Virus record (IMG/VR): IMGVR_UViG_3300032058_000009 | Location: 1-24,852 of that record | DNA from: a virus | Length of the DNA: 24,852 nucleotides | Strand: one strand, 5' to 3' | Shown here: in pieces, positions 1,689-24,763 of the stretch | Numbering within the stretch: position 1 is the stretch's first letter | How the letters are laid out: each line of letters opens with the position of its first letter | Notes under the pieces: generated by a model | What the model saw: only the letters and a program-made list of their open reading frames with translations | The model's database searches: none | What the model was told of the DNA's origin: nothing | Program-made: the position numbers and the translations under genes

Positions 1689-1767
1689 GTGCAGTATCCC
1701 GGCAAGCTTGTTGACATTTATACATATAAGACATATATATAAAGGATCCCGATATTTACTTTTAGCA

Positions 1768-4298: not shown

Positions 4299-4299
4299 C

Positions 4300-6308: not shown

Positions 6309-6577
6309 TTTCCACTCTCCTTTCGCGCCACCGGGCAGAATTGATTTTGATCAATTTTAGTTTCCAAACGTGCAAGACATGCTCCATGATATTCGAGTGT
6401 ATCGATAAGTTTCTGCAACATCTCAAAATTGTGCCGCTCACGTTCCTGTTGTGCCTCGATTATCCCGGAGAACAATTTTACCTGACTTTTATGGTAGGCG
6501 TACCAGATAATGAAGACAATGCCCGCAACGCCTGCCTGTTTCAGTATCTCTACGAAAATTCCAGCATCCGACGACAT
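6305..6577 (-). CDS. small membrane-anchored coiled-coil protein
   Basis: A 90-residue protein with one N-terminal transmembrane helix (AGVAGIVFIIWYAYH, about residues 15-29), then a long amphipathic helix or coiled coil rich in Q, E and R. The architecture resembles DUF2730-type proteins of Mu-like phages (one membrane span plus coiled coil near the small terminase); this is an inference from layout. The start ATG at 6577 has a TAGGAG site 7 bases upstream. It is the first gene of the minus-strand operon, so its promoter must lie in 6578-6751, shared with the divergent head operon. Confidence 0.65.
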   Translation of the reverse strand: MSSDAGIFVEILKQAGVAGIVFIIWYAYHKSQVKLFSGIIEAQQERERHNFEMLQKLIDTLEYHGACLARLETKIDQNQFCPVARKESGK

Positions 6578-7873: not shown

Positions 7874-7886
7874 GGAGGGTTAGGCG

Positions 7887-8906: not shown

Positions 8907-8925
8907 AAAAGAGGAGGGATAGAAT

Positions 8926-9915
8926 ATGCCAGATCCAATTGTGAAAGAACTTTTGATATCCGGTCCGCTGCAGAATGTCAGCATTGCGTACCGAAATAAG
9001 AGCTACATAGCCGACAGGGTATTTCCAATTCTCGACAATGTCGATCCGAAGGCGAAGATAGCCAGGTACCTCAAGGGCTCCTGGTTCAGAGACGAAGCGG
9101 CGATCAGAGGACCAGGGGGAGAAGCCCCGAGAGGCACATATAAGGTTGACCTATTGTCCATATCGACAAAGGAATATGCCTTTGCAAAAGAGGTGACCGA
9201 CGAAGACAGACGATTTGTAAGGTCCCAGATGGCTCCGCCTCTCAAACCTGATCAGGACGCCATAGAATTCTGCGCTGACAAGATAGACCTCTCCAAGGAA
9301 CGAAGGGTTGCTGCGCTTATCAAGGAAAGTTCCTGGGTAGATGGCAACGGCGCAGGCGGCGAAGATGCCGAAGGAATGTGGTCTCCTGCGGGAGCTACCA
9401 ACACCTTTCTGTCAGATATCGCCAAGGCGAAAAAAGCAATCCAAAGCAAAACAGGCTTGACACCAAATGTGCTACTCATCGATTATGCAACCTATGAGGC
9501 GTTGAAAGAGGTTGAAGCCATACTTGACAAGATCAAATACACCGAGAGGGGTGTTTTGACAAAGGACATTCTCGCGGCTATCCTTGACCTTGAGGAAGTG
9601 TTGGTCGGCGAATCAATCGTCAATACGGCAAAGGAAACAAAAGCCGGTACTGAATTCACAGCTTCATATATATGGGAAGTAAACCCTGGAAAAGGTATGG
9701 GTTTTGTCTTCTACAGACCTTCATCTCCAGGGCTTAAAGTGCCATCTGCGGGATACCAGGTCAGATTAGCCTATGAGGACGGCCAGCCTCGTCGTACAAC
9801 TACTTGGAGAGAACCGTCCAGACATCAGGACGTCTACGAAGTGGCAGAAGAGACAGACATTATCCAGACAGGCCCCGATTTGGGTTATTTATTTAAAGAT
9901 ACCTTTGCAACGTAA
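8926..9915 (+). CDS. major capsid protein
   Basis: A 329-residue protein directly after the decoration gene with a GAGGAGGG ribosome site, matching the expected place and size of the major head subunit. Typical capsid features are the N-terminal IAYRNKSYIADRVFPILD (about residues 21-38), the mid-protein TKEYAFAKEVTDEDRR and a late segment with helix and strands (LTPNVLLIDYATYEALKEV). It does not look like Mu gpT, so the head is mosaic: Mu-type protease and portal with another lineage of HK97-fold capsid protein. The fold is inferred from the pattern, not proven. Confidence 0.82.
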   Translation: MPDPIVKELLISGPLQNVSIAYRNKSYIADRVFPILDNVDPKAKIARYLKGSWFRDEAAIRGPGGEAPRGTYKVDLLSISTKEYAFAKEVTDEDRRFVRSQMAPPLKPDQDAIEFCADKIDLSKERRVAALIKESSWVDGNGAGGEDAEGMWSPAGATNTFLSDIAKAKKAIQSKTGLTPNVLLIDYATYEALKEVEAILDKIKYTERGVLTKDILAAILDLEEVLVGESIVNTAKETKAGTEFTASYIWEVNPGKGMGFVFYRPSSPGLKVPSAGYQVRLAYEDGQPRRTTTWREPSRHQDVYEVAEETDIIQTGPDLGYLFKDTFAT

Positions 9916-9925
9916 GGAGAGTATA

Positions 9926-10360
9926 ATGGCATACTGCACACTTGACGATATTAAAAAGCTTCTTCCCGAAGAAAACCTCATCCAGCTTACCGATGATGCG
10001 GGAAGCGGCGTCGTTGACACCAATGTCGTAGATGATGCCATTAATTACGCAGATCAACTCATAGACGGATACTTAAGGGGGAGATACACCCTCCCCCTTT
10101 CCACTGTGCCGTCGTTTTTGAAGAAGCTGTCCATAGACCTTGTAATCTTTTACTTATATGGCAGGCGTCCGGAAATTGAAAATGACAACGTTACGAAGAA
10201 ATATATCAACACGGTGAAAATACTTGAGCAGATTCAGGCGGGGAAGATATCTTTGGGGTATGACGAATCCGGTGGAGACATAGCTGGCAAAGAAGAATAC
10301 AAAACGAACAAAACATCCGATGACAGAATATTTTCTAAAATCGTTTTAGATGCGTTTTAA
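9926..10360 (+). CDS. Mu gp36-like protein (DUF1320), head-tail connector region
   Basis: A 144-residue protein started at ATG 9926 (AAGGAGAG site), not at the in-frame ATG at 9773 inside the capsid gene. The sequence MAYCTLDDIKKLLPEENLIQL, then DDAINYADQLIDGYLRGRYTLPL and KKLSIDLVIFYLYGRRP is the classical DUF1320/gp36 pattern, a helical protein akin to head-completion adaptors. It follows the capsid gene by 10 bases, in the Mu order. A 112-bp gap follows with no gene visible. Confidence 0.93.
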   Translation: MAYCTLDDIKKLLPEENLIQLTDDAGSGVVDTNVVDDAINYADQLIDGYLRGRYTLPLSTVPSFLKKLSIDLVIFYLYGRRPEIENDNVTKKYINTVKILEQIQAGKISLGYDESGGDIAGKEEYKTNKTSDDRIFSKIVLDAF

Positions 10361-10472
10361 AGGCATTTTATCGTCGGACATAGGGTTTTATACGGATGCA
10401 CCCGGAAAAATCAAAATTAACAGATTTTAACAGGGTTATAGAGGATTTTTTTAGGGCAGGGAGGATGGAAAA

Positions 10473-10766
10473 TTGATTGTGCGGAAATGGGAGTTTTTAA
10501 AATATGTTTTGAGGTTTGGAATTATACTAACAATCGTGCTGCCTATTCTTTTTATTATACAGGGAGCAAATGCCATCAAGGTCTTTACCTTTAAATTGTG
10601 TCTCGCTGCAGCAGGCCTCGGGCTCGCTGAACTTTTATGGTTATTTTACTTTAAACCGGTTTTTCATAAAACTGAGGGGTTATCTCAGTATGAGAAAAGG
10701 ACAATACTACTTTTTCGCGGCATCCTGTATGCTGCTCTTATCCTTGCTCTTACCCTGGGACTGTAG
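10473..10766 (+). CDS. small three-helix membrane protein, possible holin
   Basis: A 97-residue very hydrophobic protein with three likely membrane spans (about residues 10-30, 38-58 and 79-97). It starts with TTG at 10473, about 9 bases after a CAGGGAGG ribosome site; an ATG at 10465 is a dead end after three codons. It precedes and overlaps by 77 bases a muramidase gene, so a role as holin or holin-like lysis protein is the simplest idea, but no family is recognised. The 112-bp stretch upstream contains no gene and no clear promoter. Confidence 0.6.
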   Translation: MIVRKWEFLKYVLRFGIILTIVLPILFIIQGANAIKVFTFKLCLAAAGLGLAELLWLFYFKPVFHKTEGLSQYEKRTILLFRGILYAALILALTLGL

Positions 10767-11286
10767 TGCCCTGGATAGATGCCTGAAATTCAAGAATTCC
10801 GTCATTCGTGAATCCAGGTATTTTATCGGCATCGATGCTCCCTGGCATCTTTTTCTTGGTCAGATAGAGCTGGAAAGCCGTTGCAATGAAATTATAACAG
10901 CCTTTGACGGCGGTATGGGGCTGGGCCAGTTCATGCCGGATACGGCGGAATGGATACATGAACGAGAAAAGGCTTTACAGGAGATATCTATGGAGCCTCT
11001 GCCTTATGATCCACGGTGGTCTATCAGGGCGCTTATTCTTTATGATCGCTGGTTGTATTTAGCGGTAAAGTGCCATGATTGGTATTTTGCATTCAGGGGT
11101 TACAACGGAGGAGCAACAATGATTAACAGGGAGATTGAACGCGCAGGATCATGCGAGCATATTTTAGTTGAAAAAGAATGCAAGCGGAAGGTCATCAAAC
11201 TAAAGACCGGCAAACTACTCGATATGTGCAAAGTAAATATCGCATATCCACGTCTAGTTTATCAAAAAGGGGACAGGTATCTATGA
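10690..11286 (+). CDS. SLT-type lytic transglycosylase/endolysin with signal peptide
   Basis: This enzyme should cut the glycan strands of peptidoglycan. From ATG 10690 it is 198 residues long. Residues 1-27 form a signal peptide (basic MRKGQ, then a hydrophobic CMLLLSLLLPW stretch, then CSA). The catalytic region has the SLT pattern: QIELESRCN with the likely catalytic E62, GGMGLGQFMPDTAEW (74-88) and AFRGYNGGA. The open frame extends back to 10570, but those residues overlap the membrane protein out of frame. Sec export of an endolysin means that lysis need not depend on a large-hole holin. The stop overlaps the next start (ATGA). Confidence 0.85.
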   Translation: MRKGQYYFFAASCMLLLSLLLPWDCSALDRCLKFKNSVIRESRYFIGIDAPWHLFLGQIELESRCNEIITAFDGGMGLGQFMPDTAEWIHEREKALQEISMEPLPYDPRWSIRALILYDRWLYLAVKCHDWYFAFRGYNGGATMINREIERAGSCEHILVEKECKRKVIKLKTGKLLDMCKVNIAYPRLVYQKGDRYL

Positions 11287-11555
11287 TTGTTGCGATCTGC
11301 ATAGCTATTCTTGTTTTGAACATACTTGATTATCTCACAACGAGAAAGATTCTAAAAAACGGGGGGGTTGAACTCAACCCGATTATGAAGTGGTGCATCG
11401 AAAAAAATCTTTTCATGCCGGTTAAGTCAATACTTACGCTATTTGTTGTCGGGTTAATTTACTTTTTCAGAAATAACTATGTGGTAATAGCAGGTCTTGT
11501 GATTGTGGTGGGTTATGTGTGGATTGTATGGCATAACTGGAGGCAATTAACATGA
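11283..11555 (+). CDS. DUF5658-like small membrane protein
   Basis: A 90-residue protein with three predicted membrane spans. The N-terminus, ILDYLTTRKILKNGGVELNP (about residues 14-33), is the signature of the DUF5658 family (N-D-T-T ... GG-E-NP), whose function is unknown. It is coupled to the muramidase gene upstream (4-base overlap) and to the spanin gene downstream (4-base overlap), so it belongs to the lysis cassette and may act as a holin or antiholin. The start uses an AAGGGG site. Confidence 0.68.
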   Translation: MIVAICIAILVLNILDYLTTRKILKNGGVELNPIMKWCIEKNLFMPVKSILTLFVVGLIYFFRNNYVVIAGLVIVVGYVWIVWHNWRQLT

Positions 11556-11953
11556 TGCCATATATTACGATATTGAGGATCATAGGGCCGTATCTGATAG
11601 CTGCCGCAATAGGCGGCGCTATTGTGGGAAAAATTCAGCAGATCAGGCTAAACCATGTAACAGCTCATTTACAAATTGTTAAACAGGAATTATCCGTATG
11701 TCAGGACGTGAATAAGACGAATCAAAACAGTATTGAAAGCCTGAAAAAAGAGGTTAAAGCCGCTTATGCCGCATGTAACTCACGGTTACAAATTAAAGAC
11801 AAGATGCTCCGCAACATCCAAAGAATAGACGCCATAGATAAACAAGAAAGGATTGAAAATGAAAAAAAGGATGACCCTTCCGGCACTCCTGATAATGCTC
11901 TCCTTGACGAGCTTAACAGGATGTACCCAGGGAAACCAGATCGTCAAAACTGA
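11552..11953 (+). CDS. Rz-like inner-membrane spanin (i-spanin)
   Basis: A 133-residue protein with one N-terminal membrane helix (PYLIAAAIGGAIVG, about residues 13-26) followed by a long periplasmic coiled coil (VTAHLQIVKQELSVCQD, then SIESLKKEVKAAYAACNS). This is the layout of Rz proteins, which fuse inner and outer membranes in the last step of lysis. The identification rests on layout plus the lipoprotein gene that starts inside its 3' end. It has a GGAGG ribosome site and overlaps the preceding gene by 4 bases. Confidence 0.8.
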   Translation: MMPYITILRIIGPYLIAAAIGGAIVGKIQQIRLNHVTAHLQIVKQELSVCQDVNKTNQNSIESLKKEVKAAYAACNSRLQIKDKMLRNIQRIDAIDKQERIENEKKDDPSGTPDNALLDELNRMYPGKPDRQN

Positions 11954-12146
11954 TTATATTAGGCAGGAAATACCCTCTATTCCGGCATCGCCGGAATTTT
12001 ACCCGGTCTCGTTTATTAAACGGGATGAATACTATTGCATCGATGCGGAGAACGCCAGGAATTTGCTCAAGAACCGAGAGTTGGAAAAAGGGTATCAGGA
12101 TGAATTGAAGGAAATTCTGAACCAGATAAAAGGACCAAAGCCATGA
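11859..12146 (+). CDS. Rz1-like outer-membrane lipoprotein spanin (o-spanin)
   Basis: A 95-residue lipoprotein started at ATG 11859. It has a basic N-terminus, a hydrophobic stretch and a lipobox LTGC with the acylated cysteine at residue 21, then a proline-containing segment (IPSIPASPEFYP). The first 95 bases lie inside the Rz-like gene in another frame, the architecture known from lambda Rz/Rz1, here as an overlapping rather than fully embedded pair. It is longer than lambda Rz1 (60 aa). An outer-membrane lipoprotein spanin requires a diderm host. Its stop overlaps the start of the next gene. Confidence 0.8.
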   Translation: MKKRMTLPALLIMLSLTSLTGCTQGNQIVKTDYIRQEIPSIPASPEFYPVSFIKRDEYYCIDAENARNLLKNRELEKGYQDELKEILNQIKGPKP

Positions 12147-12565
12147 ACATTTCAGAAATGGAAGATAAGCTAATATCAACAATAGAAGGTTTACATTTAT
12201 TCCGTTTGGTTGATTCCCTTGGAAGAAAAGGGCATCCGCAAACTCTCAATTACCCCTGCGCCTTTGTATATTTCGCTGGAGACGAAAACACAATGTCCAA
12301 GCCGAGGACTGTATATGTTGTGAATTATGAAGTTTTGATCGTATGCAAAAATTTGTCGTTGAACCCGGAAAAAGAGGCAGCGAAAGACGCCTATGTCCTC
12401 CTTGATGCAGTAGAGCAGGCCATAAATGGCAAACAATTATCAATACCTGACATTGAACCGTGGACGTGCATGTCACGTGAGATATACGAATATGAAAATG
12501 GTATCATAAGCTACGTTATGAAATTTCAGACGCGGCATTATTTATCTGTGCCGACACCGGATTAA
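12143..12565 (+). CDS. Mu gp37-like protein (DUF1834), tail/head completion
   Basis: A 140-residue protein that fits the DUF1834/gp37 family: MEDKLISTIEG at the N-terminus, the central YPCAFVYFAGDENTM and VYVVNYEVLIVCKNLS, and a C-terminal strand pair EYENGIISYVMKFQTRHYL. In Mu it follows gp36; here the whole lysis cassette sits between gp36-like and gp37-like genes. It is probably a tail-terminator or neck protein, judging by fold class and position. The start overlaps the Rz1 stop (ATGA), with AAGGA upstream. Confidence 0.78.
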   Translation: MNISEMEDKLISTIEGLHLFRLVDSLGRKGHPQTLNYPCAFVYFAGDENTMSKPRTVYVVNYEVLIVCKNLSLNPEKEAAKDAYVLLDAVEQAINGKQLSIPDIEPWTCMSREIYEYENGIISYVMKFQTRHYLSVPTPD

Positions 12566-12586
12566 AATTAAAGAAAGGAGAGATTT

Positions 12587-12799
12587 ATGGATAGACAACC
12601 AGGATCATACAGGACAGCAGCAAAGGGTAAACCGCAGAAAGAAAATCTGAATGATGAGGCGATGGCGGCACGGCTTGGTAAGAAATGTACAAAACAGGAA
12701 GACATTGAAGCAGCCGGAACACCCGTTGAAGGGATGAACAGGCAGCTTGGCACTTACCGATATGACGCCAACAAAAAAGAATTTGTGCCTAATTCATAA
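12587..12799 (+). CDS. small conserved-looking protein of unknown function
   Basis: A 70-residue, hydrophilic, probably partly disordered protein (MDRQPGSYRTAAKGKPQKEN..., no membrane span, a single cysteine). A good AAAGGAGAG site precedes it. It lies between the gp37-like and tail tube genes, where Mu has the small gp38. The internal similarity between PGSYRTAAKGK near the start and LGTYRYDANKKE near the end suggests a short duplicated motif. I do not recognise a family. Confidence 0.55.
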   Translation: MDRQPGSYRTAAKGKPQKENLNDEAMAARLGKKCTKQEDIEAAGTPVEGMNRQLGTYRYDANKKEFVPNS

Positions 12800-12803
12800 A
12801 AAG

Positions 12804-12826
12804 GAGGTTTAGCTTAGCTAACCCTC
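12804..12826 (+). other. hairpin between small ORF and tail tube gene
   Basis: GAGGTTTAGC, loop TTA, GCTAACCCTC: a 10-bp stem with one mismatch. An AAGGAGG overlaps the left arm (12801-12807) but has no start codon behind it. No T-tract follows, so it is not a classical terminator; it may be a processing or partial-termination element ahead of the highly expressed tail tube gene. Confidence 0.45.
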
Positions 12827-12851
12827 TAAAAATCTAAATAAAGGAGATACA

Positions 12852-13799
12852 ATGAGTCTTGAAGAAAAACAATTAATCCTGGCAAAAACAGAAGTAGTCT
12901 ATGGTACTGACCCGATCCCTACGATTACTGCAAATGCACTTTTGACCGGCAAAGTATCCATTGAAATAGTTGATGCGAGCCGCGAGCGAAAGGTAATGTT
13001 GCCTTATTTTGGGTCATTAAAGAAAGTGCCTCTTGGTGAAGGCGTGAAAATATCATTCCCTGTAGAGTTGAGGGGCTCTGGCACTGCCACGACTCCTCCA
13101 CGTATTGCGGCGTTACTTCGCGCTGCTAACCTGACCGAATCCATAGGCAGCTCGTATATTGACTATGATCCTAACTCGTCCGCAGACGGAGAATCCTGCA
13201 CAATCTGGTTTTACCAAGACGGCATACTTTGGAAGGTTGTAGGGTGCATGTCAGAAAGCGTGAAACTTACCGCAAAGGCAAACGAAATTGCAACACTTGA
13301 ATTCTCATTAATAGGACTTTTTGGGGGTAAGGCAAGCATCACAGATGCAGCTTTTCCGGCGCCTACCTATGAGGCAACATCGATTGTACCGCCGGTGTTC
13401 AAAAGCGCAACATTCACTATACACACCTATGCAGGTATAATCAGTAATTTTGAAATGACAATTAAGAACAAGCTTGCAAAGCGCCTGTCTGCAAATGCTA
13501 CAAATGGTATACATAGATACAGCATAGTCGGCAGGGAAGTTGAAGGCAGCGTTGACCCGGAACTGGTTGCCCTCGCATCGTTTAATCCATTTAACCTCTG
13601 GGAAGATGGAGATGCAGGCACTATTACGGCCACAATCGGCTCAGAAGCCGGCAATCGGTATGTGATCACTGTAAACAATGCAGTGCTCAAGCCGCCGAAA
13701 CTGGGAGGCAGGGAAGGCATGGCAACATATGCGCTGGCATTTACCGCGCATCCGACACTAACAGCAGGGAACGAAGAAATAAAGATAAGACATAGCTAA
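12852..13799 (+). CDS. major tail tube protein (siphovirus type)
   Basis: A 315-residue beta-rich protein in the position where Mu has the sheath (L) and tube (M). Only one structural gene is present here and it looks like a tube protein of long non-contractile tails: AKTEVVYGTDPIPTITANALL at the N-terminus (about residues 10-30), paired strands with VKISFPVELRGSGTATTPP, and a repeated half near the end (ANEIATLEFSLIGLFGG, later MATYALAFTAHPTL) that is typical of a duplicated tube fold. It follows an AAAGGAG site. Chaperone and tape measure genes follow, supporting the call. Confidence 0.78.
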   Translation: MSLEEKQLILAKTEVVYGTDPIPTITANALLTGKVSIEIVDASRERKVMLPYFGSLKKVPLGEGVKISFPVELRGSGTATTPPRIAALLRAANLTESIGSSYIDYDPNSSADGESCTIWFYQDGILWKVVGCMSESVKLTAKANEIATLEFSLIGLFGGKASITDAAFPAPTYEATSIVPPVFKSATFTIHTYAGIISNFEMTIKNKLAKRLSANATNGIHRYSIVGREVEGSVDPELVALASFNPFNLWEDGDAGTITATIGSEAGNRYVITVNNAVLKPPKLGGREGMATYALAFTAHPTLTAGNEEIKIRHS

Positions 13800-13810
13800 A
13801 TACAGTGGGT

Positions 13811-13834
13811 AGAGACGTAAAATCTTGCGTCTCT
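13811..13834. repeat. palindromic intergenic element (REP-like hairpin)
   Basis: AGAGACGTAA, loop AATC, TTGCGTCTCT: a 10-bp stem with one G-T pair in the 60-bp gap between tail tube and chaperone genes. There is no T-tract. It resembles the AGAGACG...CGTCTCT palindromes that recur between genes in many bacterial genomes, so it may have been picked up from the host; this is from memory. A role in reducing read-through or in mRNA stability is also possible. Confidence 0.6.
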
Positions 13835-13859
13835 AAGAACAATAAATAAAGGAGGGAAT

Positions 13860-14279
13860 ATGCGTGACCTTGAAGTATCCGACAAAAATGTAATAACCAT
13901 AAGCGATGCAAGAAGCGGCACAGAGATAGAATTATATTATCGTAATCCCACCACGCAAGAAGAGGTCGAATACCAGACAAAGCTCTACAAACGAAAAGGC
14001 AATAAGTTGCTCTTGAATCCAAGGGTTAAGATTGATCTCGGGATCCAGATATTGACTGGATTCCGTGAGGGCGATTTCGGCATAGGCGGGAAACCCATAT
14101 CATGTGATCCAGAATCTCCTAACTATCGCCCGGACTGGAAAGACCTTATAAAGCGGACAGCAGGTGACATCATCTCAACATTTGCAACTGTCATATTTGA
14201 GGGGGCTCGTGTTACGTCCGATACGGTTGTAGAAGTCGAATTGGAGGGTGATGACATCCTCCCTTTTCAGACGAGCTGA
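13860..14279 (+). CDS. tail assembly chaperone (lambda gpG-like), upstream frame
   Basis: The 139-residue zero-frame product sits between tail tube and tape measure, the fixed place of tail assembly chaperones, which coat the tape measure during tail building. The sequence has the small alpha/beta layout of such proteins with a conserved-looking core (LLLNPRVKIDLGIQILTGFREGDFG split over residues 50-74). Its last codons carry a canonical slippery heptamer, CCCTTTT at 14261-14267, five codons before the stop, and an open -1 frame continues for 95 codons. The start has an AAAGGAGGG site. Confidence 0.72.
   Translation: MRDLEVSDKNVITISDARSGTEIELYYRNPTTQEEVEYQTKLYKRKGNKLLLNPRVKIDLGIQILTGFREGDFGIGGKPISCDPESPNYRPDWKDLIKRTAGDIISTFATVIFEGARVTSDTVVEVELEGDDILPFQTS
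14261..14267 (+). promoter_or_regulatory. programmed -1 frameshift site, C CCT TTT
   Basis: In the zero frame the bases read CTC CCT TTT CAG, so the heptamer is X XXY YYZ with X=C, Y=T, Z=T, in exact register for simultaneous -1 slippage of the P- and A-site tRNAs. The -1 frame is closed by a stop just upstream (TGATGA near 14249-14254) and is open from there to 14554, with no usable start codon, so slippage is the evident way to express it. No clear downstream pseudoknot was found by eye. Confidence 0.75.
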
Positions 14280-14554
14280 AAAGGATCAACGCCCAATGCA
14301 CGCCGGAAAAGAAAAAGAAGTGTCTCGCAACATCAGGTTCACTACTTGCTATAAAATGTGCGGAATGTGACGGGAGGATACCGCATGAACCATCAGTATG
14401 GTTTGCACATATTTGGTATCTCTACAGATTGCAGAGGGCAGGATATCCCTTCGGGCCCAATGATCTATCAGTTGAGGAATGGATGGATATTGGCATACTC
14501 AGAGATGAAATGGAAAGGATGGATAGATATATTATCGCATCTTTATTACGATAA
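14267..14554 (+). CDS. tail assembly chaperone extension (gpT-like), expressed by -1 frameshift
   Basis: This segment of 95 codons is the -1 continuation of the chaperone gene; the predicted fusion is 231 residues (136 from the first frame plus 95). It reads SDELKRINAQCTPEKKKK after the shift, then AIKCAECDGRIPHEPSVWF (two cysteines as CAEC) and HIWYLYRLQRAGYPFGPN, and ends DEMERMDRYIIASLLR. It has no start codon of its own near its beginning. In lambda the equivalent G-GT fusion is made at a few percent and recruits the tape measure. The following 132 bp to the tape measure start contain only a possible 29-codon ORF. Confidence 0.7.
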   Translation, partial: SDELKRINAQCTPEKKKKCLATSGSLLAIKCAECDGRIPHEPSVWFAHIWYLYRLQRAGYPFGPNDLSVEEWMDIGILRDEMERMDRYIIASLLR

Positions 14555-14580
14555 AAGCCGCGGCAAAGAAAATAAACCCC

Positions 14581-14670
14581 ATGAACGCATTGGATATGAT
14601 GAAAAAGGCCATCCCCGCTATGATAAGCAAAGTGATGAAAGACCCTTTCAGGATTGCAGTGATCATATAA
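14581..14670 (+). CDS. possible small ORF before the tape measure gene
   Basis: An ATG-started ORF of 29 residues, MNALDMMKKAIPAMISKVMK then DPFRIAVII, amphipathic then hydrophobic. It has no good ribosome site. The same frame is open upstream (AAAKKINP), so it might be translated by coupling to the chaperone extension, which ends 27 bases earlier. The alternative reading of this stretch, an ORF from 14358 to 14690 in another frame, overlaps the chaperone extension and looks like a shadow. Low confidence. Confidence 0.22.
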   Translation: MNALDMMKKAIPAMISKVMKDPFRIAVII

Positions 14671-14686
14671 GGAGTATAGCACAATT

Positions 14687-17509
14687 ATGAATGCTGTCAA
14701 CATTATTATACAAGCCGACGATAAGGGCGCGATAACTGTACTACAGAAGACTGAAGATGCGATGAAGCGCCTGAAATTGTCCGCAGATCAAATGACGGGC
14801 GCTGTACCTGCTTTAAACGGTGCATTCCGGAGCATGGTTACAAACTTGTCTACACTTTATGCCTCGTTTAAGATGTTTGAATCAATCAGAGATTCAACCA
14901 CGCTTGCCGCCCGCGTCGAAACCCTTGGCATAGTATTGCAGCAGGTCGGCAAAAATACTGGCTACAGTAAGGCGGAGGTGGAAGCATATTCGGCAGGCGT
15001 TCAAAAAATGGGCATTACAACCCAGGAGGCACACCAGACGATTATCAAAATGATTCAGGCGCACCTTGATCTGACAAAATCTCAAGAACTTGCAAGAGTC
15101 GCTCAAGATGCAGCAGTTATCGGAAATATTAACTCGTCAGAGGCATTGGAGCGCCTGTTGCATGGTATTATCACCTTGCAGCCGGAAATTTTGCGTACAG
15201 TGGGAATTACGGTTGATTTTGAATCGGCGTACAGGCAATTTGCATCTTCTGTGGGTAGAACAGTAGAGTCTTTATCATCTCAGGAAAAGCAGCAGATAGC
15301 GCTTAACCTTGTCCTCGCCCAGGGCAAGGATATTGCAGGATCGTACGAAGCGGCGATGGGCACCGTCGGCAAGCTTATGACATCTTTGCCACGTTTTATT
15401 GAAGGCGTTAAAGAGAAATTCGGAGAATTATTTAAACCGGCACTGGGCATTATTATCGAAGGGCTTATTGAAAAGTTCAAATCTTGGGGACGCACCCTTG
15501 AGGAATTAAAAGCATCCGGGGATCTTGCCCGCTGGGCTGACAATATCAAGACGGCCTTTGTAGTTGCAGTCGGGTCAATTGAAAACCTGTGGAGCGCAGC
15601 CAAAAAATGTGTATCAATGATAAATGATCTGAAAGAGATATTAATATCGGCATCGGTTGCTATGGGATCATATTTTATTATGCATACAGTAGAATCCGGT
15701 GCCGCAGTTGCAAAATTTGCAACACAGATTAAGGAGCTGACAATAGCCGTTGAAATACTTACATACCGTGCGCTTACGGCGCTGCTCACTCCACTGGGGT
15801 GGGTTGCCGCAGCGATCGGGGCGCTTACATATGTAACTATCAACCATTATCAGGAGTTAAGGGCTGCTGAACAAGAGATGGAGAATTTTAAAAAATCGCT
15901 GTCAAGCTTATCTGCTGATGCAAATACACAGGCTCTTATAGATCAGCTTGAAATCACAGCACTTGAAATAGAAGCCGTTGGCGGCGCATCTGATGCAACC
16001 AGGCAAAAAATAGAAATGCTGAAACAGGTTATGTCCGGAGGGGCGGAAGGATCGCAGAAGGATTGGTGGAAGGGAATCGTCCATTATATGGATATTGGAG
16101 GCGGTAAAGGCCTTCCGCCGCCCGCTGATACATACAATCTTAAAAAAATACAAGACATGAATAAGAAGATACAGGAAGAGATCGCAAAGCTTACAATGAC
16201 AGAGATTGAGTACATACATTACCGCGCTGCTGAATATGCAAAAGAGGGAGCCAGCAAAATTCTGATTGCACAATGGACGGCCGCAAACATAAAAAAGCTC
16301 CAGGATGAAATCGAGCAGCGTTATATGGATCGAATGCGCAAACTCGCCGAAGAGGAAGTAAAATCCGCCAGAGAGCATTTGATTATGACAGCCAGATATG
16401 CGCAAAAAGAGCTCGAAGAGCGGATTGCAATCGAGGATACATTAAACCAGTATAAACAAAAAATGGGTTATATTACATTTGAGGATTTTATAAAAGCAAA
16501 ATATAATAATGCCGTTGAGTTGCTTAAAGGTAAGCTCCGTGAAATTGATGCTGAAAGAAAGGTATTATCGGAAAATGAATATGCCAACGCTGACAAATTG
16601 AGAGAGCTTGGACACCAGACATATATTATCAACGAAAAAATTATGGCAATGAAACAATATGAAGTATATGAGCTCGATGAAATGCGAATCAATAAACAAA
16701 AAGAGCTTAATGACCTACTTAAAAATCAGGCAGATTACAATAAAAAAGGCTATGATGACACCTGGGTGCAGTTGATGAATATGGCAAATCAGGTGGGCGG
16801 GGAGGCAGGAGCGGGGCTCGGGAAGCTTGGTTCGTCAATCAAAGGGATTGCTGATATCGGCATGGGTCAGGACATTGCTTCACAGCGTTACCGGGAAGCG
16901 TTAAAAAATTATAATGATATGAAAGCCCTTGCCGAGCAATATTATATCGATGATTACACACAAATGCAATTTTATAACCAGCTGAAACTCGCAGAAGAGC
17001 AGATGTATACACAGCAGAGGCTCTCTATTGTCAGCAATGGTTTTGGAGCTATGGCAGGTATGGCACAGGCGTTCTACGCGCTATCCGGCAATCAGAGCAA
17101 AACCGCATTTAACTTATACAAAGCATTAGCAATTACGCAAACAACAATTGATACATATCAGGCAGCAGTAGCCGCATATAAGGCGATGGCCGGGATTCCT
17201 ATAGTTGGCCCTGCCCTTGCTGCCGCAGCAGCTGCGGCGGCTATCGCATTCGGCATGGCAAAGGTTGCAGCTATTGCATCTTTGCAGCCGGGCACTGGTG
17301 CTTCAACTGCTGCAATGCCTTCTGGCAGCGGAGGCTATGCATATAGTACACCCACAACAAATACATGGGAAAAAACAGAGACAAATAAGTCTGAGCGGCC
17401 TATAGTGATTAATATACATGTTGCCGGCAATGTTGTAGATCACGATGCATTTGCGAGGGAGATTATACCCTCCATAAAAAAGGCTGTCGAAGATGGTATG
17501 AGGGAATAA
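14687..17509 (+). CDS. tail tape measure protein
   Basis: At 940 residues this is by far the longest gene, as expected for the protein whose length sets tail length. It begins MNAVNIIIQADDKGAITVLQ, the beta-alpha start common in tape measures, followed by long helical and coiled-coil stretches. A hydrophobic region with LTPLGWVAAAIGALTYVTI lies around residues 365-385, and a second one near the C-terminus (GPALAAAAAAAAIAFGMAKV, about residues 843-862) could cross the host inner membrane during DNA injection. The central part (about 390-780) is charged coiled coil. The C-terminal region is G/S/T-rich and ends in a small beta/helix domain. It starts after AAGGAG and overlaps the next gene by one base. 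Confidence 0.9.
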   Translation: MNAVNIIIQADDKGAITVLQKTEDAMKRLKLSADQMTGAVPALNGAFRSMVTNLSTLYASFKMFESIRDSTTLAARVETLGIVLQQVGKNTGYSKAEVEAYSAGVQKMGITTQEAHQTIIKMIQAHLDLTKSQELARVAQDAAVIGNINSSEALERLLHGIITLQPEILRTVGITVDFESAYRQFASSVGRTVESLSSQEKQQIALNLVLAQGKDIAGSYEAAMGTVGKLMTSLPRFIEGVKEKFGELFKPALGIIIEGLIEKFKSWGRTLEELKASGDLARWADNIKTAFVVAVGSIENLWSAAKKCVSMINDLKEILISASVAMGSYFIMHTVESGAAVAKFATQIKELTIAVEILTYRALTALLTPLGWVAAAIGALTYVTINHYQELRAAEQEMENFKKSLSSLSADANTQALIDQLEITALEIEAVGGASDATRQKIEMLKQVMSGGAEGSQKDWWKGIVHYMDIGGGKGLPPPADTYNLKKIQDMNKKIQEEIAKLTMTEIEYIHYRAAEYAKEGASKILIAQWTAANIKKLQDEIEQRYMDRMRKLAEEEVKSAREHLIMTARYAQKELEERIAIEDTLNQYKQKMGYITFEDFIKAKYNNAVELLKGKLREIDAERKVLSENEYANADKLRELGHQTYIINEKIMAMKQYEVYELDEMRINKQKELNDLLKNQADYNKKGYDDTWVQLMNMANQVGGEAGAGLGKLGSSIKGIADIGMGQDIASQRYREALKNYNDMKALAEQYYIDDYTQMQFYNQLKLAEEQMYTQQRLSIVSNGFGAMAGMAQAFYALSGNQSKTAFNLYKALAITQTTIDTYQAAVAAYKAMAGIPIVGPALAAAAAAAAIAFGMAKVAAIASLQPGTGASTAAMPSGSGGYAYSTPTTNTWEKTETNKSERPIVINIHVAGNVVDHDAFAREIIPSIKKAVEDGMRE

Positions 17510-18276
17510 TGCAAACCCCTATAATCTTATACGATAACAGACTTACAGACGGCACGCTGACGGCGACAGACACGGCAACGGGATATGATGTGCTGAATAT
17601 AGTTGATAATCGCCCTTATACATTCTGGAAGGCTGCAAGTTCGGGGACAAAATATATCACTGTGGACTGTGGATCAACAAAGAGCGCCGATTGTCTTGCA
17701 ATAATCGGTCATAATTTTAAAACCGCGGCCGCAATTGTATCTATAGAGTCATCGCCAGACAATACTGTATGGACAAAACGGCTATCGGATTTTACCCCGA
17801 TATCAGATAAGGCTTTTATGAAAACATTTATATCTTCATCAGCACGGTATTGGAGAATTAAAATAATCACTACCTCTATTGCGGCGCAGATTGGTGTTGC
17901 AGTACTTGGTACTAAGATGCAGTTTGAATACCCACCGGAAACTCCTTACAATCCCTATACAGAAACGCCTGCCGCATACGTGGAGCGCAGCAAAAACGGT
18001 CACATACTCGGCGTCTCGACATATAACCCTGTGCTTGAGTTTAGGGCTCTATTCAGTTTTATAACCAGAACATGGCTTAACACATATTTTATTCCCTTCT
18101 GGCAGAATCATGCGAGGCTTTTCAAACCGTTTTTTTTTGCCTGGGATCTCGATACCTATCCTGAGGATGTGTTTTTTGTGTCAATAGATAATAATATGAC
18201 TTTTGAAACCCCGTTTTCTATTTTAGAATACGTGGATACAGTGTTCTTGACCATGAGAGGAGTGCGCGAGGTATGA
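17509..18276 (+). CDS. distal tail protein with discoidin-like N-terminal domain
   Basis: A 255-residue protein directly after the tape measure (1-base stop/start overlap, GAGGG site), the usual place of distal tail and baseplate proteins. Residues 1-135 look like an F5/8 type C (discoidin-like) beta sandwich: YDVLNIVDNRPYTFWKAASS, ITVDCGSTKSADCLAIIGHN, then SPDNTVWTKR and ARYWRIKI. Discoidin folds often bind carbohydrates. The remainder carries aromatic-rich tail-type sequence (FIPFWQNHARLFKPFFF, then AWDLDTYPEDVFFVSIDNN). The domain call is from pattern only. The gene is coupled to the next by ATGA. Confidence 0.62.
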   Translation: MQTPIILYDNRLTDGTLTATDTATGYDVLNIVDNRPYTFWKAASSGTKYITVDCGSTKSADCLAIIGHNFKTAAAIVSIESSPDNTVWTKRLSDFTPISDKAFMKTFISSSARYWRIKIITTSIAAQIGVAVLGTKMQFEYPPETPYNPYTETPAAYVERSKNGHILGVSTYNPVLEFRALFSFITRTWLNTYFIPFWQNHARLFKPFFFAWDLDTYPEDVFFVSIDNNMTFETPFSILEYVDTVFLTMRGVREV

Positions 18277-20036
18277 CATACGATGCATACAAAGATTCCC
18301 TGTCACGTTATCCAATTGAAATGGTCATAATCACGCTCGACTACTGCAATAATACAATAGGAGTAAGTCCTTGTATGGCAATAGACTGGTGCGGAAAATC
18401 TGGTCTATACTGCGGCCTTTCAACCATATATTGCGGCGGCATACAGGAGCGCTGTTACAATACATACTTTACATGCAAGGATAAAACAAATTTTAGCAAG
18501 GGGTCAAAAGACTATATATTTACATCAAATGATGCACCGCTGCCTTTTAAAGCAGGCGAGCGGCCATATATAAAAGAAATTAAGCACTTACCTACAGAAA
18601 TCAAAACATCATTAACAATTGCTGGACGGGTAAATATCATCATGTATGATGAGCCGGATACGGACATAGGCATAGATCCTTATGTTGCGACTCGGACATC
18701 CGTGCAGGGATCGTTCTGGAAAAAACTCATTGCCAGAAACCCGAATTATGCAGGCAGACGGATACGGCTGTATCATGGTTTTTATGGCCTTTCATTTCTT
18801 GATTTTGAACAGAAATTTGAAGGGGTTATAGACAGCATTACAATCAAGGAGAACGAAATGATAAATATTGAGTGCGCAGATCTCCTTAAATCGCTGTCAA
18901 AAATAGAAATCCCCCCAAAACTGAACATTAAACTTGCCGCTGAAATGACAGCAGAACAGACAACTATATCTGTATCTGACGGCACAGACCTTGACGCAAA
19001 TGGATATATCAGGATAGGCGACGAAGTCATATCATACACGACAAAAACAGGTAATCAGTTGATAGGATGTGTGAGGGGTTGCTTCGGCACGTCAGCTACG
19101 ACTCACAGTAAGAATGACAAGGTTCAAAAATGCCGCTATTATGAGCCGCAAAGCCCTTACGACATCCTTATTGCTATGTTGCTGACTGATGCCGGCATAG
19201 ACCCAGCTTTTGTCAATGACGCAGCATTTACCGCACTAAAATCGTTAGACGAATCGATTGTGAATTTTTCTGCACTTATAAGCGAACCTGAAAAACTTGA
19301 CACGCTCTATTATGAGATTATTGAGTTGATTGAATGCAAAAGCTGGATGGGCGAAGACCTGAAAATAACTATTGCAAAAAATCTACCTAATTATCCCAGG
19401 AGAATTTATCAGGTATTTACGGATGATGAAAATATTATCGCCGGGTCTGATAGCGTTGATCTCAATGCCACATCGCGCAAAAGTAGAGTGTCAATTTACT
19501 GGGATAAAACATTAACAGGTAAGAACGAGATAGCAAGCTATGCACGGCTCGATGTTGCTATTGATGCCGAGGGCGAAAGCACAAATATGTACAATGAATC
19601 ACTCGAAAAAAAGATAATGTGCAGATGGCTACGATCAGATTATATGGATGAGGATTTAGTTATTAAATATGTGGCGAATTTATCGAAACGCATACTGAGG
19701 TCATTGAAAAATCCCATGCCTATATATACATTTGCCGTTGAGCTTAAGGATGCGGAGGTAAAAACAGGCGATTTTGTCAGGATCACAACTGATAAAATAC
19801 TTGGAGTGGACGGTAACCCCCTATCACGCAATGTATATCAAATTGTAAAACGTGAGCCGAAAGGGAATAAAATAGTTCTGAAAGCTATGAAATACCCCAG
19901 TAAAAAACTATTTTTTGTGGGTCCGAATACCCTGCCAGATTTTACAAGCGCCAGTGAAGATGAGCGGGAGTTCGGTTTTATAACGGATGCGGTGGGCCAG
20001 ATGAACGACTGGAGCGAAGGATATGTATTGTATTAA
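18273..20036 (+). CDS. tail tip/hub-like protein with an N-terminal cysteine-rich region
   Basis: A 587-residue tail protein between the distal tail protein and the fibre genes. The most striking feature is the N-terminus, with cysteines at residues 25, 34, 40, 47, 54, 61 and 68; the last five are exactly seven residues apart. After this comes a beta-rich segment that fits hub proteins (SLTIAGRVNIIMYDEPD, GVIDSITIKENEMINIECAD) and an inserted domain with ISVSDGTDLDANGYIRIGDE (about 230-250). The C-terminal third returns to hub-like sequence (AEVKTGDFVRITTDKI near residue 495). It has a GAGGAG site and overlaps the previous stop. Confidence 0.65.
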   Translation: MTYDAYKDSLSRYPIEMVIITLDYCNNTIGVSPCMAIDWCGKSGLYCGLSTIYCGGIQERCYNTYFTCKDKTNFSKGSKDYIFTSNDAPLPFKAGERPYIKEIKHLPTEIKTSLTIAGRVNIIMYDEPDTDIGIDPYVATRTSVQGSFWKKLIARNPNYAGRRIRLYHGFYGLSFLDFEQKFEGVIDSITIKENEMINIECADLLKSLSKIEIPPKLNIKLAAEMTAEQTTISVSDGTDLDANGYIRIGDEVISYTTKTGNQLIGCVRGCFGTSATTHSKNDKVQKCRYYEPQSPYDILIAMLLTDAGIDPAFVNDAAFTALKSLDESIVNFSALISEPEKLDTLYYEIIELIECKSWMGEDLKITIAKNLPNYPRRIYQVFTDDENIIAGSDSVDLNATSRKSRVSIYWDKTLTGKNEIASYARLDVAIDAEGESTNMYNESLEKKIMCRWLRSDYMDEDLVIKYVANLSKRILRSLKNPMPIYTFAVELKDAEVKTGDFVRITTDKILGVDGNPLSRNVYQIVKREPKGNKIVLKAMKYPSKKLFFVGPNTLPDFTSASEDEREFGFITDAVGQMNDWSEGYVLY

Positions 20037-20066
20037 AGAAATAAATATCTAAAAAGGGAGGTAAAA

Positions 20067-21284
20067 ATGGGTTATAACGCAATATTATCATCAGAAGTAG
20101 ATGTAGGCAGCCCCGGCAAGGCTGAATTATTTCAGAAAATAAAAGACAATTTTGATTATCTTTATACGATGATAGGTGGACCAGTAGAGGTACCGAATGG
20201 GTCGTTTGAAATAGATACCGACAATGACGGTATACCGGACAACTGGACGCTCAATCTATATGCTGGCGGGTCAGCCGCATTTGACACAGCATCAGCGCAT
20301 GGCTCAAAGGCATATAAATTTACCCGGACCGCAGGGGCAGGAAATGGTGGCGGATATCTTGAATCTGGTTATATGGAGTGCAGCCCTATAGGTGTATACA
20401 TGATAGGTTTCAGTATCAAATCATCTGTTGCAAATTTGAAAAATATTGTAAAAATCAGATATTTCAACAAAGATAAAGTTTATATATCAGATCAGGATGT
20501 ATATTCATCAACAACAAATCCGACATCATGGCAGAGATATCAATATACGATGAACATACCTTCGGATGCGAGGTATTACAAAATCCGCCTGATCGGAGGC
20601 TATACGGATACGGATGTTGCAGGCGATACTTATTATGATGATGTTGCAATCTACAATAAGGTCGTGAATCAATCACAGCTGAAAACCGCTACCGGCATCG
20701 TGGGAGGCTACACCGGTCATTATATCATCCCGGGGGGAGAGTATGCATTTATGCCGGCGTTTGCTGTCAATAACATTTCTGAAATTAGCGCTAAGTTTTG
20801 TAATGGCGCCGTTGTTTATCCCAACAATTGGTATGCTTTTATATATCTACATCTGATTCCTGAATATTACAACACATTTATATATGCAAAATTTCGTTAT
20901 GTGACATCGTCCGGTACGGAATATTGGATATTTGTGCTGTATGATAAACAACAGCATAAAATACTGGCGTCATATGACGCCCCAGACCATCCATGTTACG
21001 GTAACGGCGGCGATGAAAATAAAGTGCCACACCCGTTTATGGATTACTTGGGCAATCCGCTGCCTGACAATATAGAAATTGTGCTGCTCGATATGGTTAC
21101 AACCAATGAACTCAGGCGCAGGTCACAGGAAGAGGGGCGCGTTATATCAATGCTACTTGCAGAATATGATGTTGATATGTCCAAGGAAATAGAGTTCGTG
21201 CCGCGCGATATGGACGGCAAAAGAACACTGACACAAAAGCATCCTTCATATAAGGTAAGAAGATTATTAAAAAAGGAGGTATAA
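20067..21284 (+). CDS. tail fibre-like protein with carbohydrate-binding-type domain
   Basis: A 405-residue protein behind an AGGGAGG site. The N-terminus (about 1-40) looks like a helical attachment segment. Then comes EVPNGSFEIDTDNDGIPDNW (about 41-60), with the D-x-D-x-D-G-x-x-D calcium-loop pattern of thrombospondin type 3/dockerin-like repeats, leading into a jelly-roll similar to carbohydrate-binding modules (SWQRYQYTMNIPSDARYYKI, YYDDVAIYNK). The second half is a different beta-rich domain of unknown type. The C-terminus is charged. It probably contacts the host surface or holds the DGR-varied protein. The next gene starts one base after its stop. Confidence 0.6.
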   Translation: MGYNAILSSEVDVGSPGKAELFQKIKDNFDYLYTMIGGPVEVPNGSFEIDTDNDGIPDNWTLNLYAGGSAAFDTASAHGSKAYKFTRTAGAGNGGGYLESGYMECSPIGVYMIGFSIKSSVANLKNIVKIRYFNKDKVYISDQDVYSSTTNPTSWQRYQYTMNIPSDARYYKIRLIGGYTDTDVAGDTYYDDVAIYNKVVNQSQLKTATGIVGGYTGHYIIPGGEYAFMPAFAVNNISEISAKFCNGAVVYPNNWYAFIYLHLIPEYYNTFIYAKFRYVTSSGTEYWIFVLYDKQQHKILASYDAPDHPCYGNGGDENKVPHPFMDYLGNPLPDNIEIVLLDMVTTNELRRRSQEEGRVISMLLAEYDVDMSKEIEFVPRDMDGKRTLTQKHPSYKVRRLLKKEV

Positions 21285-21817: not shown

Positions 21818-22896
21818 ATGATACTATGGAAAAATGACCCGGCATATTTGCTAAATGCCGACAACCTGCACAAATCTATTGCAGACATTATTGATTTCTC
21901 CGGGGGAAGTATTTATCCAGGAAATCAGGCGAGACGGCGAAACTGGAAATTGCGGCGAACACTAAGATTGCAATCAACAACAATGGCACATTTAAGGTAT
22001 TTAATGTAGGCCCCACTGCAAAGGTACTGGATGAGGGCAATCTTGATACCGGCGTATTCGTTGTGGGAACAGATTATTATGTATATCTTCACGATGATAA
22101 TGCTGATCAGGAGGTATATATAATATCTGCAAATTCCACATACCCGACTTCACATGGGTGCAATGCAAACAACACCAGGAAAATTGGCGGGTTTCATTAC
22201 GGCTACGAAAGGGTGTCAATCACCGTGAACGACGTGAGGGTTGCTATTGTACCTAACTCAGTGTGGGATCTGAAACATCGACCAAAATGTTCCCCAGAAG
22301 GCATGGTTTATTTGGGCGGTGGCGTCTGGGTAGATATATATCTTGCATCAGTCAATGAGGCAATAACTTTTAATGGAGGAAATGGATATCCTCTTTTGAC
22401 AGGCACAGCTAAAAGCGTTTATGGCGCTACACCGTTGACCGGTATAGAAGGTTTATCTGGATATAACTTTATTGAGCTTGCCCGCAGATCCGGGAAACGA
22501 TTATTGTCTTATAGCGAATGGCTTGCCGCCGCTCATGGCCACCCTGCAGGCAATCAATTTGCCGGCAATACGTCCTCACGTGGAACAACCGGAGAAGATG
22601 CCAATTTAGGCGCAATATCCTTTGCTAACGTAGTAAATTGCTGCAGGAAGATTTGGCAGTGGCTGGATGAATTTACAATTGAGCAGGCCAGCACTTCTTA
22701 TGCCTGGCAAAATCCTATGTCAGGGATGAACGTAGGGCAGCTCTATTTGCCAAACGGAAGCGGTTTACGACAGTTTATAGCTGGTGGTGATTGGGGCGAC
22801 GATGCGTACTCGGGTTCTCGCACGGTGGCCCTGAGCTACTGTCCGTGGAGCGTGAACACGGCCATTGGCTCCCGTTTCGCCTGTGACTCTCTGTAA
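21818..22896 (+). CDS. DGR target (variable) protein, C-type-lectin/FGE-like fold, with an apparent -1 frameshift
   Basis: This is the gene diversified by the retroelement, most likely a receptor-binding tail protein like Mtd of phage BPP-1. It starts at ATG 21818 with an AGGAGG site. The first frame reads MILWKNDPAYLLNADNLHKS...IIDFSGG and then turns to arginine-rich nonsense. From 21895 the -1 frame reads on as GKYLSRKSGETAKLEIAAN...TFKVFNVGPTAKVLDEGNLD to the end, so the break lies at the GGGGG at 21902-21906. With one more G the protein is 359 residues. The C-terminal half has FGE/C-lectin features: SVWDLKHRPKCSPEGMVYLG, GKRLLSYSEWLAAA, then the variable region (residues 323-357) with GGDWGDDAYSGSR and the terminal IGSRFACD. 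A GTG at 22063 could begin only the downstream part, and it has no ribosome site. Confidence 0.85.
22783..22887 (+). repeat. DGR variable repeat (VR)
   Basis: The last 105 bp before the stop region of the target gene match TR at 23292-23396 without gaps. There are 12 differences, at 22783, 22789, 22795, 22798, 22828, 22829, 22835, 22837, 22841, 22850, 22861 and 22862. Each has A in TR. In VR nine are G, two are C and one is T. The final 25 bp (22863-22887) are identical in both copies and would contain the initiation-of-homology (IMH) part. Confidence 0.96.
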
Positions 22897-22899
22897 TCT

Positions 22900-22913
22900 G
22901 ATAACTGTTTATC
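22900..22913. other. short inverted repeat downstream of VR (possible cruciform)
   Basis: GATAA, loop CTGT, TTATC, 12 bp after the end of VR. In BPP-1 a hairpin or cruciform with a 4-base loop just downstream of VR helps retrohoming. This one has the right place and loop size but only a 5-bp AT-rich stem, so it may be chance. Confidence 0.35.
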
Positions 22914-22950
22914 TGTTTTTGTTTTTTAAAGGAGGTAAAAATAATAATCC

Positions 22951-23283
22951 GTGGAAAACCTTATTATTTATCAAAAACAATATGATTTTGCGCTGTATTT
23001 ATTTCCTATTGTTGACAGGTTTCCGAAACATGAAAAATTCGTGTTTTGCACGCATATAAAATCATGTGTTTTGGACATAACAAGGTTGATTATACAGGCA
23101 AACAAAACCAGGCACAAAAGGTCGCTATTGTATAACATTGATGTAAAAATTGAGGAACTAAAATTTTTATTGAGGCTGGCGCATGACAGAAAATACCTGG
23201 CCCACAATAGCTATGAACACAGCAGCAAACTTATTTTGGAGATAGGAAGATTGTTAGGAGGCTGGATCAAAAGCGCGGTCTAA
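22951..23283 (+). CDS. avd: Avd-like DGR accessory protein
   Basis: Avd is a small basic four-helix-bundle protein that forms a pentamer, binds the reverse transcriptase and TR RNA, and is needed for mutagenic cDNA synthesis. The 110-residue product is all-helical and basic with the family pattern: YDFALYLFPIVDRFPKHEKF at the N-terminus, FVFCTHIKSCVLDITRLIIQ, then IDVKIEELKFLLRLAHDRKY and a C-terminal ILEIGRLLGGWIK. The start is GTG at 22951 behind a strong AAAGGAGGT, with a longish spacing of about 14 bases; no ATG fits. It lies between VR and TR, as in the Bordetella element, and ends 8 bases before TR. Confidence 0.88.
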   Translation: MENLIIYQKQYDFALYLFPIVDRFPKHEKFVFCTHIKSCVLDITRLIIQANKTRHKRSLLYNIDVKIEELKFLLRLAHDRKYLAHNSYEHSSKLILEIGRLLGGWIKSAV

Positions 23284-23600
23284 GAACGTTTAGTGGTAAT
23301 TGGAGCAACGATGCGTACTCGGGTTCTCGCACGGTGAACCTGAACAACTATCCGTGGAACGTGAACACGAACATTGGCTCCCGTTTCGCCTGTGACAGTA
23401 TTGTTTTAAGAGTTGGTATCTCTACGGAGTGCCAACCAGTGATTGTAATACAGTCAGGTTCTTAGTCCATGTTTCCGCTCAGGCGGAAGCAAAAATTGAA
23501 CAGGCTGGCAGGTTCATATTTCATACATGGTGAGTAAGGATGATAATCCATAAAACCGTGCCAGCCGAATTATAATTAAGCAATCAGAAGGGCAAAATAG
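23284..23600 (+). ncRNA. TR-containing DGR RNA with structured 3' spacer
   Basis: The 317 bp between avd and the RT gene hold TR and a spacer with no ORF but with clear RNA folds. Hairpin 1: 23412-23436, GTTGGTA paired with TGCCAAC, then CTC/GAG closed by a C(UACG)G tetraloop, with one bulged base. Hairpin 2: 23471-23490, GTTTCCGC, loop TCAG, GCGGAAGC. Stem 3: GGCTGGCA (23503-23510) paired with TGCCAGCC (23559-23566), extended by GGTT/AACC beyond a bulged G. In BPP-1 the RNA flanking TR is part of the template RNA that Avd and the RT use for priming; the same role is inferred here. Exact RNA ends are unknown. Confidence 0.72.
23292..23396 (+). repeat. DGR template repeat (TR)
   Basis: The 105-bp donor copy lies between avd and the reverse transcriptase gene. 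It has 25 adenines, many placed as AAC codons when read in the frame of VR (AGT GGT AAT TGG AGC ... GTG AAC CTG AAC AAC TAT ... TGG AAC GTG AAC). AAC is the codon type that gives the widest residue choice without a stop when adenines are mutated. No adenine substitution in these AAC codons can create a stop codon. TR itself is not in a gene. Confidence 0.96.
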
Positions 23601-24614
23601 ATGCCGATAACATACAACAACTTGATTAGCAGCATTTATAGCTTTAATAATCTTTATGCGGGTTATATAAAGGCAAGAAAATGCAAAAGGTATACAAATG
23701 ATGTGCTTAAGTTCAGCAGCAATCTTGAGAAGGAATTAATCGAACTACAAAAGGAACTTTCAAGCGGTAGATACAAAACAGGAAACTACAAGAGGTTCAC
23801 AATATTTGAACCGAAAAAAAGGGAGATATCTGCTTTGCCGTTTCGGGATAGAGTTGTCCACCATGCCTTGTGCGCTATCATTGAACCTTTATTCAACAAT
23901 AAATTCATACATGATTCATATGCATGCCGCCTGGGCAAAGGCACACATGCTGCATCGTCCGCATTATCTTTATATTTAAGGCGATCAAAAAGAATCTGGG
24001 ATAGAGCTTATTGCCTCAAGGGCGATATTAAAAAATGCTTCCAATCTATCGACCATGAAATATTAAAACGTATTATAAGAAGGACAATACGGTGCAAAAA
24101 AACGCTGACGCTTATCGATGAAATTATCGACAGCACTAGTGGCTCAAAGGGAATCCCGATCGGCAACTTAACCTCACAGCTTTTTGCAAATATATATCTA
24201 AATGAGCTTGATCATTTTATTAAGGAAAAATTAAAGGTCAAATTCTATATAAGATACCTCGATGATTTTATCATTATATATAGAGACAAAGAGGTGGTGC
24301 ATGGCTGGCACGGCAAGATAAAGCAATTTGTTGAACAACAGCTAAAACTTACATTAAATGCAAAAACATCAGTATTCCCGGTCAATCAAGGCGTTGATTT
24401 TGTGGGTTACCGGACTTGGGCAACTCACAAGTTGCTGCGCAAAAGGAGTATTATCGGTATGAAGAGGAAGCTTCGAAAATTGGCTGTATTACACAGGGAA
24501 GGCCGTATAGGATTAAAGGATATCAAATGTGTACTCGCATCTTGGCTCGGCCATGCCCAACACGCAAATAGCCATAATGTAGTGAAAAGAGTGTTGAGAA
24601 ATTTTGTTTTTTAA
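23601..24614 (+). CDS. DGR reverse transcriptase
   Basis: The 337-residue enzyme copies TR RNA into adenine-mutated cDNA, which replaces VR. The RT motifs are in order: RFTIFEPKKREISALPFRDR (about residues 65-84), YACRLGKGTHAASSAL (107-122), the first metal site CLKGDIKKCFQSID (138-151, D142), the fourth-motif signature GIPIGNLTSQLFANIYLNEL (184-203) and RYLDDFIIIY (218-227) with the catalytic YLDD. G-x-x-x-SQ in place of the QGxxxSP of group II intron enzymes is the DGR mark. No maturase, nuclease or other domain is attached, and the length is typical (300-400 aa). The ribosome site is weak (AAGGG). It is the last gene of the element. Confidence 0.96.
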   Translation: MPITYNNLISSIYSFNNLYAGYIKARKCKRYTNDVLKFSSNLEKELIELQKELSSGRYKTGNYKRFTIFEPKKREISALPFRDRVVHHALCAIIEPLFNNKFIHDSYACRLGKGTHAASSALSLYLRRSKRIWDRAYCLKGDIKKCFQSIDHEILKRIIRRTIRCKKTLTLIDEIIDSTSGSKGIPIGNLTSQLFANIYLNELDHFIKEKLKVKFYIRYLDDFIIIYRDKEVVHGWHGKIKQFVEQQLKLTLNAKTSVFPVNQGVDFVGYRTWATHKLLRKRSIIGMKRKLRKLAVLHREGRIGLKDIKCVLASWLGHAQHANSHNVVKRVLRNFVF

Positions 24615-24763
24615 AAAGCATGAAGAATAATAATGAGGGGGTTATGCAGCTTTTATCTTACATGGGATGAAAATCACTTTTCATTATAAGAAATAAAAAA
24701 TTCTCAAAGTTGGTGTTAAGTTATAGTAAAAATAGTTGAAAAACAAAACTGGAGTTGCCCCAG

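Follow-up and report, generated by a model that had tools for sequence, protein, structure and literature searches.

A Mu-like transposable prophage with siphovirus-type tail genes carries at its right end an Mtd-type diversity-generating retroelement whose target gene is interrupted as assembled

That a diversity-generating retroelement (DGR) can be carried by a Mu-like siphophage is already known in principle. The hankyphage of Bacteroides, described in 2018, combines a Mu-like transposase and 5-bp duplications with a flexible siphovirus tail, seen by electron microscopy, and a DGR (PMC6199706; PMC12135933), and Vibrio phage vB-Vv-ZX4290 has Mu-like head genes followed by a tail operon of siphovirus type, judged from gene content, and then by a target gene, Avd and a reverse transcriptase (RT) at the genome end. 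The novelty that a preliminary description of the present locus had implied for the union of a DGR, random transposition and a siphovirus tail was thus anticipated by both hankyphage (PMC6199706) and vB-Vv-ZX4290. Chromohalobacter phage YPCBV-1 is likewise Mu-like and carries a target homologous to Mtd, which its authors call a SUMF1-type enzyme, together with Avd and an RT at its right end (PMC9769972), while the transposable Mushu of Faecalibacterium also has a DGR target (PMC11792537).

The window analysed here is an entire IMG/VR record of 24,852 bases. Positions 21818-24614 hold an mtd-like target gene that contains a variable repeat (VR), followed in turn by avd, a template repeat (TR) and an RT gene, and comparison with BPP-1 bears out the proposal that this order is the same in both. 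We consider it very probable that the element is a genuine DGR of the BPP-1 (Mtd-Avd-Brt) type and that it is the final gene module before the right end of a transposable, Mu-like prophage whose tail is of siphovirus type. All parts of the DGR are present, but the target gene is interrupted as assembled. The preliminary description had called the DGR complete, which holds for the VR/TR pair, avd and the RT; the target ORF, however, is not continuous, with the frame of ATG 21818 stopping at 22009 and the Mtd homology and VR lying in another frame, a break that had gone unmentioned. The features of the window are as follows.

30..560, plus strand: Mu Gam-like protein (profile match).
941..1249, plus strand: late transcription activator of C/Mor type (profile match).
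1251..6577, minus strand: packaging block with Mu gpG-like tail completion, MuF, Mu portal, TerL, TerS-like and two small ORFs (profile matches).
6752..9915, plus strand: head protease, scaffold and major capsid.
9773..21284, plus strand: connector, lysis and tail genes, with gp36, SLT lysin, tail terminator, tail tube (Phage_tube_2), tape measure, F5/8-type protein and tail fibre.
21818..22009, plus strand: 5' fragment of the target, ATG with upstream AGGAGG, 63 codons, departing from the Mtd frame.
about 21922..22896, plus strand: Mtd-like target, second domain and C-terminal lectin-type domain, in a different frame from ATG 21818.
22784..22887, plus strand: VR, at the 3' end of the target gene (repeat comparison).
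22951..23283, plus strand: avd, accessory variability determinant, 110 aa (Pfam bAvd, E 9.9e-33; phrog_3206).
23293..23396, plus strand: TR, containing 24 adenines (repeat comparison).
23397..23600, plus strand: TR-RT spacer, strongly structured RNA, candidate counterpart of the BPP-1 spacer.
23601..24614, plus strand: DGR reverse transcriptase, 337 aa, frame intact, with PIGNLTSQ and YLDD motifs (phrog_1423 over its full length).
24703..24725, plus strand: right end of the transposable prophage (..GGTGTTAAGTTATA), common to two sister prophages.

Besides the gene order, the locus shares with BPP-1 an Mtd-family target, Avd and the placement of VR at the target 3' end, but its target is only 29% identical and has a broken frame, and BPP-1 shows no Mu-like transposition, its annotated attachment site matching a tRNA. 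Hankyphage resembles the window in Mu-like transposition, in a siphovirus tail (known from microscopy there and from gene content here) and in having the DGR on a tail gene, whereas its target was without similarity to characterised proteins in 2018 (PMC6199706) and the target here is Mtd-like. The layout of vB-Vv-ZX4290 is close to that of the window, although its head genes all lie on one strand and its target is another one, and YPCBV-1 differs in having sheath and baseplate genes of its own, and so a contractile tail. What the window adds is an Mtd-type DGR in a lineage of transposable phages with siphovirus tails, relatives of which occur in Deltaproteobacteria, Gastranaerophilales and Fibrobacter MAGs.

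The two repeats, each 104 nt long, are 89% identical and lie 509 nt apart, and each of their 11 mismatches is at a TR adenine (hypergeometric p about 1e-8). These mismatches alter nine codons, every one with a change of amino acid. Read in the VR frame, TR has its main variable sites occupied by AAC or AAT codons; adenine changes cannot turn any TR codon into a stop, and the theoretical repertoire is about 10^14. The 3' ends of the two repeats, examined for an initiation of mutagenic homing (IMH) element, share an identical 20-nt GC-rich block, and the sequence downstream of VR, examined for a 3' hairpin, offers only a short candidate hairpin.

The target was matched by Pfam mtd_2nd (E 2.9e-24) and by the tail protein family phrog_11262 (E 4e-60), and it aligns with the solved BPP-1 Mtd (PDB 1yu1) over 280 residues reaching the C terminus (E 9e-21). 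By this homology the C-terminal domain that carries VR is assigned a C-type lectin fold. A structure prediction, which had been suggested as a check, was uninformative on this point: the AlphaFold model from a 13-row alignment reached a mean pLDDT of 37 and its fold search gave no meaningful matches, so the model was set aside and the lectin fold rests on sequence homology instead. The ORF at 21818..22009 matched no family in the Pfam and phrog profile searches. In the downstream frame the first ATG, GTG or TTG is GTG 22063, which already lies within the second Mtd domain; use of a non-standard start codon in that frame appears unlikely, no ribosome-binding site being visible by eye. The frame break argues that the exact sequence as assembled would not yield full-length Mtd, and the gene is not an intact, expressible one in this record, perhaps owing to an assembly error.

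Searches of IMG/VR for exact patterns taken from TR and from the surroundings of the frame break found no near-identical second copy of the window phage, so three explanations have to be weighed: an assembly error, a genuine lesion and a length-variable switch. An assembly error is the most likely of the three. On this reading, which is compatible with our overall interpretation and which we think probable, the break arose in assembly or sequencing, and the living phage has an open target frame. The sequence is a single metagenomic assembly, the break adjoins a run of five G (21905-21909), Mtd homology picks up directly in the other frame, and the frame is open from start to stop in 12 of 12 mtd relatives; the same dependence on one assembled copy, with no second one from the pattern scans, also weighs against the reading. 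That the DGR has decayed, a real lesion having silenced the mtd-like target and left the cassette a relic in this copy, is a less probable, though not negligible, account. It would agree with a break between 21818 and about 21922 followed by no usual start codon until 22063, and with open frames in all 12 relatives, but a short G run is a common site of assembly error, and the RT, Avd, TR and the remainder of the target are intact. Moreover, every difference between VR and TR lies at an adenine, with zero background substitutions within the repeat, which indicates that diversification was recent on this lineage. We regard as very improbable the proposal that the G run is an on/off switch, by which DGR rewriting of the receptor-binding tip would be joined to reversible silencing of the whole tip protein.

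The two proteins encoded downstream of the target were identified by profile searches, which the preliminary description had recommended for the RT and target. Avd, previously noted as an avd-like gene, scored 123 bits against a cut-off of 80 for the NCBIfam equivalog NF033474 ('diversity-generating retroelement protein Avd'), in addition to its Pfam bAvd match. The RT, proposed to be of DGR type from its GxxxSQ and YLDD motifs, has PIGNLTSQ and YLDD, and a PDB search ranked the reverse transcriptase 8ub7 first (E 2e-67), the group II RT LtrA reaching only E 5e-17. An RT grouping outside the DGR clade had been named as grounds for abandoning the DGR reading; in our tree the RT clusters with DGR RTs, BPP-1 Brt among them, split with support of 100/100 from the three group II RTs that served as the comparison (retrons were left out, and the place of the RT inside the DGR group is not fixed by this tree). 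It is 39.6% identical to BPP-1 Brt and 45.6% to the vB-Vv-ZX4290 RT. NCBIfam models for group II intron and defence RTs scored far under their cut-offs (142 of 300 bits; 77 of 200). We therefore give practically no credence to an RT from a group II intron, retron or defence system beside an unrelated repeat pair: the RT domain is common to all those families, but these low scores, the SQ rather than SP motif, the separate 100/100 clade, the presence of both Avd and TR/VR, and the confinement of 11 of 11 mismatches to TR adenines all oppose it.

The template RNA of BPP-1 has a structured spacer. In the window the spacer between TR and the RT gene folds far more stably than its shuffles (z -5.7; control windows averaged -0.6), in keeping with a counterpart of the BPP-1 template-RNA spacer. 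Strong folding is confined to some of the relatives: L010, L021 and L023 share with the window a z under -3, whereas L004 and L008 are near 0. TR-RT spacer DNA is too divergent when aligned for a covariation test, and an Rfam search gave no match at the gathering threshold. By analogy with BPP-1, we infer that an RT-Avd complex would take an RNA spanning TR and the structured spacer and copy the TR RNA into cDNA with its adenines misread, and that this cDNA would replace VR at the 3' end of the mtd-like gene, TR being kept. Residues of the lectin fold at the receptor-binding surface would change as a result, and the target would presumably contact the host receptor. Of the proposal that the phage varies its host-binding protein as BPP-1 does, the DGR identity and the Mtd-type target are upheld, whereas tropism switching may be attributed only tentatively to this copy, with its broken target frame.

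Related mtd loci provide indirect support for homing in the window phage. Most have TR/VR pairs, and in these TR adenines account for most or all of the mismatches. Between the mtd genes of L023 and L025 there are 12 differences in 1040 positions outside VR and 28 in 160 in the VR end, and 20 of 27 VR differences lie at TR adenines; the L032 and L033 genes differ at 13 of 911 positions outside VR and at 17 of 160 in the VR end. Natural relatives of the target thus appear to concentrate their variation in VR, the outcome expected of a DGR.

The carrier was proposed to be a Mu-like, transposable phage with a siphovirus tail, and its genes agree. Mu-like head and regulatory genes are represented by Gam, the late activator, Portal_Mu, MuF, a gpG-like protein and Gp36. 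The tail, known here from genes alone, has a tape measure, a tail tube and a tail terminator, and no tail sheath was found among the tail genes of the window. A Mu-type transposase would lie outside this truncated record, and one is present in a complete sister prophage; a search with DDE_2 (PF02914) returned zero matches, controls included, and was thus uninformative, the transposase having been found with other models. The right-end sequence TATAACTTAACACC occurs in the window and in both sister prophages beside three different flanks, which places the right end of the window phage at about 24725, 111 bases past the RT stop and followed by 127 bases of flanking DNA (24726-24852). Although the left end is missing from the window, varied insertion sites are evident from these three flanks and a 5-bp target duplication from the AGTGG that borders the complete sister on both sides. 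The window is therefore part of a transposable phage, one whose tail genes look siphovirus-like. Inspection by eye suggests that the minus strand of 24726-24852 encodes the C-terminal end of an IS3-type transposase with an integrase fold (..INHPHKGLKMRSPREYKMM..), a possible reason for the contig to stop there.

The two sisters (C102 and C169) belong to the Deltaproteobacteria MAG UBA4796. They resemble the window in head genes up to 91% identical, in an inverted packaging block, in the right end and in the position of the DGR. The complete one measures 35,886 bp, has TATAA-type ends, and encodes the Mu-type transposase, a MuB-like ATPase and an S24 repressor. In the sister DGRs, 13 of 15 and 11 of 12 TR/VR mismatches lie at adenines. 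The UBA4796 genome contains no Mtd match, and C102, in contrast to the window, has an unrelated 434-aa DGR target and different distal tail genes. Comparison with the sisters suggests that the tail tip is swapped together with the DGR target at the right end, against a near-constant head backbone. The lineage is therefore well suited to questions about how DGR targets pass from one phage to another.

Several further arrangements were seen in these and other genomes. The distal tail genes of C102 include a lambda gpJ-like tail tip protein (L048 7841-11023), where those of the window differ. Its DGR also contains a gene for a D12-class adenine-specific DNA methylase (L048 4458-5357) between target and avd, and in Pseudomonas phage Bise a DNA adenine methylase gene directly follows the RT. 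A plasmid of Ideonella dechloratans (L060 9388-12787) carries two tandem avd-RT pairs beside an integrase and phage tail genes, and its two RTs are not each other's closest relatives in the tree. Finally, the TerS-TerL-portal-MuF-gpG block of the window (1251-6577, minus strand) is flanked by early genes on one side and the protease-capsid operon on the other, both on the plus strand. Prophages from Deltaproteobacteria, Gastranaerophilales/Cyanobacteria and Fibrobacter MAGs (L037-L040, C169) also have their packaging genes inverted relative to protease and capsid, indicating a conserved arrangement and not an assembly fault.
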